A stretch of DNA of 29,528 bases, taken from positions 1 through 29,528 of IMG/VR virus record IMGVR_UViG_3300024273_000544; one strand, written 5' to 3'. The notes below the pieces were generated by a model that saw only the letters and a list, made by a program, of their open reading frames with translations, was not told the origin of the DNA and searched no databases. Position numbers and translations under genes: made by a program. Shown here piece after piece: positions 8,204 through 28,196 of this stretch (the stretch's first letter is position 1; every line of letters starts with the position of its first letter). This DNA comes from a virus.

Positions 8204-10006
8204 TTATCCTATTGAAGCACTCTTGATTATATTTCTATCTAAAGATTGTGCAGTTGACACTTCACCAGATACTACATAAGCCTTTATTGGTGTGTTTTGT
8301 TTATCTCCTAAAGATTGTGCTAATTGGTTTGTTGGACTTGCACCTACCACATTAAAAGAAGGTGCTGCACCCATACTTGCACCACTTGGAACAGATGCAT
8401 TACCACCGCCTTTTGGGGTTTTAACAGACATAATAGCTTTTACATTTTTAAGACCACCAGCGATTGCTAAACCAGCCGAAATATAAGGATATGCTGGACC
8501 TAAAATAGATATAGGATTTGCTTGAGCATTTTTAAAAGCAGATTGTGCAGCAGCGTATGTATCAATGGTTGTAGCAGCCACCGCAGCAACTTTTCCAGCA
8601 GCAGTATTTTGTCCAATTAAATCTGAAATATTAGACAACATTGCAGAACCTCTTGCTAAGTTTTCAATTTTAGCATCTGCTTCTAGTTTAGAAATTTCTA
8701 TTCTAGCTTTTGTTTGTTCTGATTCATTTGTTGTTATTTCATTATCTATTTCTTGTAATCTAGTTTTCAATTCTAATTCTGCATCAACTCTCGCTTGTGT
8801 GCCTAATGCATAACCATTTATTTGATTTTGTAATCTTTCAGTTTCAGATAATTTTTCTGCTTCTAAATTAGTTTTTTGCAGTTCCAACTTTTTTAATTCG
8901 TCTGCTTCTAATGTTTCATTGAACTTTTTTTGCTCTATTGACAATGAACTAATGCCATCAATTTGTGATTTTGTAAGGTCAACAGATTCTTTTTGCAAAG
9001 ATATTCTATTTGCTTCTTGTTCAGATGTCAGTCCTTCAACTTGGGCTAAAACTCCTAATGCGTTTGCTTGTGCGTTTATTAATGCAACTTGATTTTCAGT
9101 AGTTTTATTTAAATTAAATGTTGCTTCTGCCGCTCTTACTTGCAAATCTGCTTGTGCCTTCATTGCAATTTGTTGATTTTTTAAAACATCTTTAAGTTTA
9201 TTATTTGCAATAATTCTATCTTCAATAGACAGTAAATCATTATCTCTAATTTTTCTTAATTGTTCCGCTTGTAAATCATATTGTTCAACTAATTTAGCTT
9301 GTTGAGCAGCTGCTATTAATGCTGATTTTTGCAAATCTATATTTGCTGCTGAAGCCTTAAAAGTATTTACTGCATAATCAGAAATTGCTTTTGATGCATC
9401 TTCTACAAACTTTTTCCCTTTATCAAATGAATCATTAACGCCAGTTAAAACATCCAAAGATTCTTTCCCAGCCTTTTTCACAGATTCCATTGCACCAGCA
9501 AAATCACCTTCAAACACTTTCTTTAATGCTTCGCCTAAATATCCGACAGTATCTAATAAAGAATCAAATCTTTCAAGTAAATTTTCTTTAATTAAATCAC
9601 CAAACTTCTTTAAATATTCAGTTGGATTTTCAAATACATCTTTAAATATTTTTATTATAGTAGGAAAATTATCTGTAACAAATCCAAATAAATCATTAAA
9701 AGCTATTGATAAAGCACCAATAGCAGTTGACATAAAATCAACTACTTTTTGATTCTTACCTAACACTTCTTTAAACAAATTGAACGCTTCCATCACTAAG
9801 CCAATACCGATTGCTTTAATAGCTAACCCCATTCCTTTAAATCCAGAAGAAAGTGATTTAACACCATCTTCTGCACTCTTAGTTGATTTTTGGATTCCCT
9901 TTATTTCTTGTGATGTATCTTCAAAACTGTTAGATAATTTCTTAACATCTTTTGTAACTTCAGCAAGATTATTTTTAATTTCTAAATTAACTACCTTGTT
10001 TTCCAT
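8204..10006 (-). CDS. Tail tape measure protein
   Basis: 600 residues, with the layout of a short tape measure: long helical stretches, a hydrophobic block at about 57-76 (GMGLAIKAIGIGLVMEAF), a second near 90-110, and a coiled-coil centre (about 220-440) rich in Ala, Gln and Lys. A Gly/Ala-rich segment follows (ISAGLAIAGG near 515-525), and the tail end reads TPIKAYVVSGEVSTAQSLDR, which I associate with tape measures of Flavobacteriia phages. At about 0.15 nm per residue it would specify a tail near 90 nm. It lies downstream of the tail chaperone and baseplate-type genes rather than between them, an unusual place. Confidence 0.8.
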   Translation of the reverse strand: MENKVVNLEIKNNLAEVTKDVKKLSNSFEDTSQEIKGIQKSTKSAEDGVKSLSSGFKGMGLAIKAIGIGLVMEAFNLFKEVLGKNQKVVDFMSTAIGALSIAFNDLFGFVTDNFPTIIKIFKDVFENPTEYLKKFGDLIKENLLERFDSLLDTVGYLGEALKKVFEGDFAGAMESVKKAGKESLDVLTGVNDSFDKGKKFVEDASKAISDYAVNTFKASAANIDLQKSALIAAAQQAKLVEQYDLQAEQLRKIRDNDLLSIEDRIIANNKLKDVLKNQQIAMKAQADLQVRAAEATFNLNKTTENQVALINAQANALGVLAQVEGLTSEQEANRISLQKESVDLTKSQIDGISSLSIEQKKFNETLEADELKKLELQKTNLEAEKLSETERLQNQINGYALGTQARVDAELELKTRLQEIDNEITTNESEQTKARIEISKLEADAKIENLARGSAMLSNISDLIGQNTAAGKVAAVAATTIDTYAAAQSAFKNAQANPISILGPAYPYISAGLAIAGGLKNVKAIMSVKTPKGGGNASVPSGASMGAAPSFNVVGASPTNQLAQSLGDKQNTPIKAYVVSGEVSTAQSLDRNIIKSASIG

Positions 10007-13701: not shown

Positions 13702-14249
13702 TTTATATCTTTTAAACTATAATCAATAATCGTTTCTATATCTTGTCCAAATGCTTTTACTAAATCTGTATCAATGTATTTCTTATAAGCAGATTCAAAA
13801 GGTTTTGTAAAAAACAAACTTGGTTTAATTCCTCTGTAAAATATATTTCTAGCTATTATTATTCCTATGGTTTTATAACTGCCTTTTTTAAATTTTCCTT
13901 TAGAATCTCTTAATCTTATGTTTTTTCTTTTTGCCCATTCAGCTAATGGTTTTGAAGGTGGTGGTAATGTCTTAAAACTGAATCTACTGTTAGGTGCTTG
14001 TTGTCCTCTTATCTTTGCATTTTTTGAAACCTTTGAAGGGTCAACTCCTTTAACACCTTCATCTTGATACATTCCATAATTCAACATTGTGAATCCTACA
14101 ATTGTAAATTTATCTTCAGTTACTATTTCACCTTTTAAACTATTGTATAAATCTTTTGTATCGTTTTTCTTTGATTTTGATAAATTACTTCTCGCTTGTT
14201 GTATAACAACATTTCTAAACTTTTCTATTACCTTTTGAACCTCTAGCAT
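13698..14249 (-). CDS. HK97 gp10-like head-tail joining/tail completion protein
   Basis: 183 residues. An N-terminal helix (about 1-30) is followed by DLYNSLKGEIV, then FTMLNYGMYQDEGVKGVD (about 53-70), the GxYQDEG pattern characteristic of HK97 gp10-like neck proteins. A conserved-looking basic segment (RFSFKTLPPPSKPLAEWAKR) comes next, then the C-terminal IGIIIARNIFYRGIKPSLFF. This class completes the tail end that joins the head. Its place between the tail-terminator-like gene and the large tail genes agrees. It overlaps the preceding gene by 7 bases. Confidence 0.65.
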   Translation of the reverse strand: MLEVQKVIEKFRNVVIQQARSNLSKSKKNDTKDLYNSLKGEIVTEDKFTIVGFTMLNYGMYQDEGVKGVDPSKVSKNAKIRGQQAPNSRFSFKTLPPPSKPLAEWAKRKNIRLRDSKGKFKKGSYKTIGIIIARNIFYRGIKPSLFFTKPFESAYKKYIDTDLVKAFGQDIETIIDYSLKDIK

Positions 14250-14695
14250 ATTGTCATTGTGTTTGCAATTGCCATATCAAAAGTAGTAGTTACACCAGCT
14301 AATTTATTTTCAAATCTTTCTGTAAAAAATTCAATGTTTGGGTTTCCTATTAATTCAAAATCATTTCTTAAAGTACCTCTTCTAAGCACTTCAATAAATC
14401 TATTTGCAACCATCATTTGAGTATTCAAAACATCTTGTTCATTATCATTACCAACAAATATATCTGTTACTTTATCTTTAGATTCATCAACAATATCCAT
14501 TGATAAAATTGATACGTTATAGACTAGAACAGCACCTTGATAAGACACGTTGTTAATTATGATATGCGACAAAGGAAATATAGTTTGCTTGTTTAAATCA
14601 ACTTTAAATATATCTCCCATTGTTACAGTATTGACAAACTTATCAAGTTGCAATTGGTCTTTTATTTTAGTTGTTATTTCGTAGAATGTACTCAT
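14243..14695 (-). CDS. Tail terminator-like protein
   Basis: 150 residues, alpha/beta. It contains GNDNEQDVLNTQMMVANRF (about 92-110), FIEVLRRGTLRNDFEL, GNPNIEFFTERFENKLAGVT (116-135 region) and ends in MTIC. I recognise the order of RFENKLAGVT and the final NTMTIC as a Bacteroidota phage tail family occupying the tail-terminator position. It would cap the growing tube. The start lies 2 bases after the stop of the -1 frame of the tail chaperone gene, which supports that frame being translated. Confidence 0.6.
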   Translation of the reverse strand: MSTFYEITTKIKDQLQLDKFVNTVTMGDIFKVDLNKQTIFPLSHIIINNVSYQGAVLVYNVSILSMDIVDESKDKVTDIFVGNDNEQDVLNTQMMVANRFIEVLRRGTLRNDFELIGNPNIEFFTERFENKLAGVTTTFDMAIANTMTIC

Positions 14696-14697
14696 TG

Positions 14698-15443
14698 TTA
14701 TTTTCTTTTTATTAAATCAGATTCAATTTGATTTTTCTGTTTCTCAAATGTTAGATAAGTTAAACATTGTGTAAGTGGTAGTTCGGTAACTTCATCAAAT
14801 CTTGCAAGGTTTCCTTGAGCAATAGCATAGATTGAACTATACCATCCCCATCTTTTACCGAATTGTGCTGATGCAGAATAGTCATCACTTCTTTGTCCTT
14901 CTCCAAATAATCCATCGTACTGGCTAATAATTCGTTCCCTAAATTGTAAAAAAAAACATTAGCACCTAAGACAACATTAAGTGGTGCGTGTTTCATTACT
15001 TCAGAATAAGTTATTGAACCATTATACTTATCAATCTCATACGTGCCATTTAAGCCATTCTTTTTTATTGGTCTATACAATACTGCCATTGCTTTGTGCA
15101 TCTGCTGCCAGTCGCTTAAATATGTATCTAAATCAGTATATTCTCCAAAAGATATATCTTCAAGATTAGGAATAAATCCAAATTCTATACCGCCCATTTT
15201 AAACTTCTGGATGAACTTGTGATTTTTAACATCAAACATTCTACCTAATGAATCTGTAATATCAACTACATCCTTAAATTTTATTTCAGCAACTTCTTTT
15301 AAATCTATTCCGCAGAATATTTGAACCATCTTCTGATGTAGCAATTCAGAATCTTCATTGTCTTTTGCAATCTTTAAGAACTTTTGATACTGTGATAATT
15401 TCACTTCGCCTAGTTCCGTTGGTATATTTAATTCGTATTTCAT
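14698..15443 (-). CDS. Tail assembly chaperone-like protein spread over two frames (apparent -1 frameshift)
   Basis: The zero frame runs from the ATG at 15443 to a TAA at 14760 (227 residues). From a T9 run at 14956-14948 the -1 frame is open to a TAA at 14698. Joining zero frame (residues 1-165) to the -1 frame after T TTT TTT gives 248 residues. The -1 part contains DDYSASAQFGKRWGWYSSIY and AQGNLARFDEVTELPL, then CLTYLTFEKQKNQIESDL, which I recognise as a tail assembly chaperone C-terminus in Bacteroidota phages. Its codons end mostly in A or T, as elsewhere here, whereas zero-frame codons after the run are rich in third-position G or C. Programmed slippage, a natural mutation or an undercalled homopolymer are all possible. 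Confidence 0.7.
14948..14956 (-). promoter_or_regulatory. Candidate -1 slippery run (T9) in the tail chaperone gene
   Basis: The zero-frame codons read GTT TTT TTT TAC on the minus strand, so T TTT TTT satisfies the X XXY YYZ rule for -1 slippage. The last -1-frame stop upstream is a TAA just before the run, so the run sits at the earliest point where a shift is possible. No downstream pseudoknot was modelled. Confidence 0.55.
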
Positions 15444-16831: not shown

Positions 16832-16935
16832 AAAATTTATATTTAAGAATCCCACAAGAAAAAAAAGCAATCAAAAACACCTTTTTAAGTCTTGTGTTCA
16901 TTGGTTAAATTGATTTATTTATTAATCGATTAGAA

Positions 16936-21538: not shown

Positions 21539-21565
21539 AAAAAAAAACTACCTCTTTAGAGATAG
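21539..21565 (-). terminator. Intrinsic terminator overlapping the end of a small gene
   Basis: CTATCTC, TAAA, GAGGTAG (7 bp with one T-G pair) followed by nine T residues on the minus strand. The stem includes the final codons and the TAG of the gene at 21682-21548. It insulates the unit starting at cassette A. Confidence 0.88.
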
Positions 21566-27718: not shown

Positions 27719-28196
27719 TATGCATTATATTGTATTTTGGTTTTAATAATTTAATGTATTTTTCTTCTATTTTTAAAAGTTCTAAATCTGAAATTTCATT
27801 AGGTAATTTAGCAATTATTGAAAAACTATCAAATTCTTTTAATCCTTCTTTTTTATGATTAAATATTCTGCTTTGTATGTTTATTGTTTTACCTACATAA
27901 ACTATTTCATCTTCGCTTATTAAAGAATAAATAAACTTAAAAAATGATACTTCTTTTTTATTAGTTATTAAGTACCTTTTTAAATATTCTTTTTTTGTTA
28001 AATTATTTTTTTTTATTTCTAAACTAACAGAATCAGTATTTTGCATTTTCTTTTTAAAGAACTTTACATTAGTATAACCTCTTTTACTTTCTATCCAATT
28101 TTTAAAGCTAGTATATTCTTTATCTGAATAAAAAACTTTATTATAACTTTTACCAGTACCATAAAAGTCGCATTTAACTATGTATTCTAATTTCAT
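27702..28196 (-). CDS. GIY-YIG superfamily nuclease
   Basis: 164 residues. The catalytic domain is C-terminal: FIYSL (88-92) and VYVGKT (99-104) are the GIY and YIG equivalents, with Arg110 and His114 (IQSRIFNH) next and the catalytic Glu in KIEEKYIKLLKPKYN (143-156). The N-terminal 80 residues (with YGTGKSYNKVFY and KNWIESKRGY) form another small domain that may bind DNA. It resembles homing or mobile phage nucleases more than UvrC. It stands alone behind its own promoter-like site and is very AT-rich, suggesting a mobile, late-acquired gene. Confidence 0.75.
   Translation of the reverse strand: MKLEYIVKCDFYGTGKSYNKVFYSDKEYTSFKNWIESKRGYTNVKFFKKKMQNTDSVSLEIKKNNLTKKEYLKRYLITNKKEVSFFKFIYSLISEDEIVYVGKTINIQSRIFNHKKEGLKEFDSFSIIAKLPNEISDLELLKIEEKYIKLLKPKYNIMHNEKTN

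Follow-up and report, generated by a model that had tools for sequence, protein, structure and literature searches.

A conserved run of nine to ten T joins two overlapping frames of a putative tail assembly chaperone gene in a family of Bacteroidota phages

Tail chaperones provide a textbook example of ribosomal frameshifting. In chaperones of the lambda G/GT type, two proteins share their N-terminal part, the longer one continues into the -1 frame, from which it takes a second domain, and the genes belong to the tail module (PMC5009743). In the Caulobacter phage Seuss (KT001914), ribosomal slippage is annotated at position 16854, on the site T TTT TTC with six T, leaving a zero-frame tail of 49 codons. 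A different route to two products is known from bacteria, where a stretch of nine A or nine T can induce slippage and so give rise to mRNAs carrying additional bases (PMC5009743); in mxiE of Shigella, an added U joins two overlapping open reading frames, and runs of nine A or nine T are selected against elsewhere (PMC1088944). Transcriptional frameshifting on an A11 run in tssM1 of Citrobacter rodentium is described as giving a shorter and a longer product, at a fixed ratio that a tail-like machine requires (PMC4256274).

The gene analyzed here lies on the minus strand of a 29,528-base virus record from IMG/VR; this whole stretch is referred to as the window. Its parts, and the two other genes of the module that matter for the argument, are as follows.

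14760..15443, minus strand: zero-frame open reading frame of 227 aa, with its ATG at 15443 and its stop at 14762-14760; the short form, composed of the shared N-terminal domain and the zero-frame tail
14948..14956, minus strand: T9 run, the shift site, with the zero-frame codons GTT TTT TTT TAC
14949..14955, minus strand: in-phase heptamer T TTT TTT within the T9 run
14698..14958, minus strand: -1 frame, open from just 5' of the run to the TAA at 14700-14698; C-terminal domain of the 248-aa long form
14760..14947, minus strand: dual-frame overlap, identical with the zero-frame tail of 62 codons
14959..14961, minus strand: -1 frame stop TAA immediately 5' of the run, absent from some relatives
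14939..14941, minus strand: +1 frame TAG, two codons past the run, within a conserved TTTAGG
14243..14695, minus strand: next gene, 150 aa, with its ATG at 14695, 2 bases past the -1 stop
8204..10006, minus strand: candidate tape measure protein, 600 aa, matching PHROG 21537 (virion structural protein)

Joining the zero frame to the -1 frame at the run gives the fused product of 248 aa. An earlier note, made from the letters of the window alone, had described two overlapping readings after the T9 run, with G/C third bases in the zero frame and A/T third bases in the -1 frame, and this description was borne out: past the run, third-position GC amounts to 0.50 when read in the zero frame but 0.16 when read in the -1 frame, compared to 0.13-0.23 in 13 other genes. 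The -1 frame has a codon log-odds of 0.30 per codon, within the range of true frames in the window genome (minimum 0.19, mean 0.51), whereas the zero frame past the run scores 0.00, within the range of false frames; the -1 frame thus resembles a real gene in its codon score, and the zero frame after the run does not. The C-terminal domain in the -1 frame follows the pattern FFLxFRxR...KWGWY...LTFEKxK, represented in the window by WGWYSSIYA and LTFEKQK; both motifs, and the stop 2 bases before the next ATG, are present just as the note had them. Its statement that the run is the earliest possible shift point is correct for the window, where the -1 stop at 14961-14959 precedes the run, but does not extend to the many relatives that lack this stop; it is therefore the run, rather than the stop, that sets the shift position. 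The +1 stop within TTTAGG would quickly end products that slipped in the wrong direction; as a slippage feature it was rejected and counted as no evidence, because the F-R and L-G coding of the other two frames forces it.

The window gene resembles lambda G/GT in its two predicted forms with a shared N-terminus, in its second domain in the -1 frame, and in its place within a tail gene module. It differs in the uninterrupted signal of 9-10 T, in a zero-frame tail of 50-90 codons, and in the lack of any Pfam or PDB family match; moreover, the tape-measure-like gene follows about 4.7 kb further on, several genes downstream, whereas in lambda it is adjacent to G/GT. The Seuss chaperone shares a Phe-Phe shift site for the -1 frame, a long zero-frame tail and a weak fold match (E 0.088); it differs in having six T only and in sitting just upstream of the tape measure gene, and it was discarded as a sequence relative since hhalign finds no sequence relation. 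Shigella mxiE would be similar in that overlapping open reading frames are joined by one U added at a U run, and is different in that it is no phage tail gene. In tssM1 (PMC4256274) the parallel would lie in the two lengths of a protein of a tail-like machine, and the contrast is that the run is poly-A and the gene an unrelated one of bacterial secretion.

The gene product is very probably a tail assembly chaperone, an assignment based on gene position and a weak fold match. The earlier note had called the gene tail-chaperone-like, and its position as the first gene of the tail module agrees with this; homology to known chaperone families is weak. The N-domain corresponds to PHROG 32199, of unknown function (E 6e-16), and the chaperone-like protein has no match in Pfam or PDB. 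A fold search of the PDB gave nothing with E under 0.8 and VIA-align Z scores of at most 2.5, although a missing PDB match does not imply a new fold. In Foldseek searches against BFVD, the best chaperone-named matches were weak (the Seuss tape-measure chaperone at E 0.088 and a tail assembly chaperone at E 0.18); a protein of Flavobacterium phage 6H matched at 2.8e-5. Several BFVD proteins match the N-domain and the C-domain models in one chain, an argument for the fusion being a genuine protein. In AF2 models the N-domain reaches a pLDDT of about 90 and the zero-frame tail is mostly under 60; the C-domain folded alone gave a poor model (pLDDT 64). The open reading frame at 8204..10006 is probably the tape measure protein, as read by inspection from its coiled-coil and hydrophobic stretches. 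The tail module (15443 to 8204) sits between terminase and head genes (18367-1560 in the window, minus strand); the head genes comprise a protease (8173-7583), a capsid-like protein (5779-4847) and a portal (3839-2064), so that the tail module precedes the head genes, the reverse of the usual head-then-tail order.

A first search of viral contigs, which took the fused protein as query and relied on peptide patterns outside the junction, recovered 492 relatives; the best 80 of these 492 and the window (73 distinct sequences) all carry T9 in the same phase, with varying flanks. Further scans with more distant members as queries, and one scan of bacterial genomes that added four Bacteroidota MAG contigs, including Winogradskyella and Flavobacteriaceae, led to a final set of 539 loci carrying both domains; the phage would have hosts among the Bacteroidota, of Flavobacteriaceae type. 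Two scans used junction patterns; since the remaining ones used N- or C-domain patterns, and every match was confirmed by tblastn, the search did not exclude single-frame relatives. At 538 of the 539 loci, it is the -1 frame that holds the C-terminal domain. The earlier note had named an uninterrupted single frame in homologues as evidence against a programmed shift; such a frame occurs once in 539, at locus L317 (959-968), where one extra T (T10 at the same place) joins the frames and the other frame is still open. The T10 of L317 represents either a real slip at the DNA level, with the long form as the default product, or a mistake in assembly.

The two-frame layout is shared by the cultured Nonlabens phages P12024S and, very probably, P12024L, members of the same family; at about 30% identity to the window, P12024S has the same T9, the same phase and the same -1 domain, and differs in a zero-frame tail of only 25 codons. 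Its annotation lists two hypothetical genes, gp38 and gp39 (PHROG 32199 and 38404), with the -1 part set apart as gp39 and the frameshift unmarked. The annotated gp39 (L082:6525-6692), which corresponds to PHROG 38404, is 55 residues long and covers no more than the C-terminal part read after the shift; the family is consequently split in the database. Two contigs carry the chaperone gene at both ends, 3300020042_002931 (L010 and L042; flanks 79-93% identical in DNA) and 3300034167_000034 (L050 and L076; flanks 74-93% identical), and each probably consists of two related genomes joined in assembly.

The recurrence of layout and run at 538 of 539 loci is, on the sequences compared, far above chance, and we regard it as nearly certain that recoding at the T run is conserved. 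In a census of 416 distinct sequences, which group into 134 clusters when N-domains are compared at 80% identity, T9 occurs in 328, T10 in 87 and T12 in 1, always without interruption; runs of 7 or 8 T are absent from all 416, although T TTT TTT would stay intact in them. The longest run, the T12 at the junction of L384, is in the same phase as the others. The runs occur in the registers NTT TTT TTT T.., NNV TTT TTT TTT T.., NNV TTT TTT TTT CTG and NTT TTT TTT TTG/TTC, with a single occurrence of AAT TTT TTT TTT CGT. Given the amino acids, the chance under codon usage of finding TTT at both Phe codons across 129 clusters has a log10 P of about -32, and the run is kept even at a genomic GC of 0.55, in phages that use TTT for only 0.19-0.37 of their Phe codons. 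In clusters whose Phe pair is followed by a codon beginning with C, the pair is also preceded by TTT (6 of 6 clusters), compared to 14 of 132 otherwise (Fisher p 4.5e-6 with 80% clusters, 0.0022 at 65% clustering), which indicates that the run is held at 9-10 T; as a caveat, the C-start lineages belong mostly to one subfamily, plus the separate lineage L539, and the six clusters are not fully independent. When TTG or TTC stands at the second Phe codon, NTT is found two codons further upstream in 55 of 55 cases, a 5' extension of the run that gives T10 rather than T8. The codon before the run is hydrophobic also in the register where neither mechanism constrains it, and the amino-acid constraint is thus real. 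A strictly in-phase T TTT TTT with hydrophobic neighbors can explain most features of the run, but not the absence of 7 or 8 T; across the census it is the run length, and not the heptamer alone, that is conserved.

The zero-frame tail of 62 residues, which had seemed unusually long, is a genuine family trait: most members have 50-90 codons, and the P12024 group 15-24. With the -1 protein fixed and codons drawn from the usage of the window, the probability that synonymous choice keeps the zero frame open over the observed length is 0.0037 in the window, and 0.0000-0.11 across 18 representatives, with values below 0.02 in 13 of the 18; the openness of the zero frame is probably selected, to judge from this codon resampling. 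Amino-acid conservation in the zero frame was not detected in the window clade, where dNN/dNS restricted to a single codon position is 0.94 (0.11-3.1), with controls at 0.37-0.83; since this restricted ratio is like that of the controls, only openness of the frame is claimed. Two other measures were set aside: a first dNN/dNS count (0.55, 0.09, 0.31), taken as tail conservation, was confounded by codon position, and a tree-based count of stop-creating changes was biased, its clades having been picked for equal tail length.

How the two frames are joined is a matter of weighing two slippage mechanisms, and we lean toward transcriptional slippage, as in mxiE, over ribosomal -1 slippage. The short form (227 aa) would be translated from the unaltered mRNA; the host RNA polymerase would slip on T9 and add one U in a fraction of the transcripts, and normal translation of these U10 transcripts would produce the 248-aa long form with its different C-terminal helical domain. 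Two protein forms would result, as with lambda G and GT. This mechanism is favored because the run stays at 9 T or more where a ribosomal heptamer with seven T would suffice, because no downstream RNA structure was found, and because T runs are avoided independently of phase. With regard to structure, the fold check suggested in the earlier note gave a negative answer: in pseudoknot-free folding of 70 lineages, the region 3' of the run has a mean z of 0.00 (55 bases) and 0.02 (85 bases), compared to -0.08 for the upstream control, and RNAalifold found 0 consensus pairs downstream of the run in 23 aligned sequences. Nine or more T in unbroken succession, with no stimulatory structure, fit polymerase slippage at least as well as ribosomal slippage.

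The avoidance of T runs was measured in 864 other genes flanking the loci. Observed/expected ratios of T7 by codon phase are 0.42, 0.53 and 0.50; T8 was seen 8 times against 36.7 expected, T9 once against 8.1, T10 not at all against 2.2, and A9 16 times against 38.6. The depletion of T runs starts at T7 and is stronger than that of A runs of equal length. The avoidance scales with length and not with codon phase, as should be expected of transcription or replication slippage, whereas slippage of the ribosome should be sensitive to phase. Judged by the criterion that Baranov and colleagues set out (PMC1088944), 9T would be slippage-prone in these genomes. Three features of the 9A/9T slippage class are found together in the family: the run has at least 9 T in 416 of 416 sequences, the run and the shifted extension are conserved, and such runs are avoided elsewhere. 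Other nine-base runs in the window are a T9 at 28006-28014 (A9 on the coding strand of the open reading frame 28196-27702) and an A9 at 21539-21547.

The one alternative with an appreciable, if lesser, probability is that ribosomes shift by -1 in a programmed way at T TTT TTT, as they do in lambda G/GT and as is annotated for Seuss at T TTT TTC. The earlier note had proposed it; the -1 shift at the run and the in-phase heptamer stood up, and the ribosomal mode is judged the less likely of the two. Low-level -1 ribosomal shifts can work without a stimulator, as in lambda. On the ribosomal account, the two extra T would be due to the coding of a hydrophobic residue ahead of the Phe pair and to the Leu/Phe codon after it in the -1 frame; T TTT TTT is indeed in phase in every member, the hydrophobic codon before the run reflects a real amino-acid constraint, the C-start compensation partly follows ancestry, and the T-run avoidance may stem from replication slippage. 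The mechanism is also known in tail chaperones (PMC5009743), with 6-7% measured (PMC3711429). Against these points, no downstream structure was found in 70 lineages, every T TTT TTC or T TTT TTG is accompanied by at least 9 T, and runs of 7 or 8 T were never found, while at the annotated ribosomal site of Seuss six T followed by C are sufficient.

Translation of the -1 frame as a separate protein from an internal start, with no fusion, is very unlikely; it would agree with the annotation of the P12024S -1 piece as a gene of its own, gp39, but the -1 homology reaches the run itself (FFLSFRER), upstream of any shared start, single chains of distant BFVD relatives match both domain models, and in L317 one continuous frame codes for the fusion. 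Least probable of all, and close to negligible, is the indel or T10-to-T9 undercall that the earlier note had raised, in which a single-frame gene was misread in sequencing or assembly or recently inactivated: homopolymers are error-prone and L317 does have T10 with fused frames, but the layout is common to 538 of 539 loci, with 416 distinct sequences from many metagenomes and the two cultured phages P12024S/L refuting it, and an indel leaves the zero frame, open for 50-90 codons, unexplained.

Polymerase slippage on the T run remains the favored reading, and we put it at slightly better than even that this Bacteroidota phage family sets its tail-chaperone ratio by polymerase slippage on T9-T10, with an overlap kept open for 50-90 codons. 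Among open-licence papers, none was found that describes this family or its shift; the switch is real and was unannotated. The annotation is hereby corrected for hundreds of phage genomes, two of them cultured, that carry the gene split or without its true C-terminus. The family also provides a clean set of natural variants for testing the ribosomal against the transcriptional mechanism. If polymerase slippage is the true mechanism, the chaperone ratio would be settable at the step of RNA synthesis, by a slippage-grade T run maintained in genomes of up to 55% GC.
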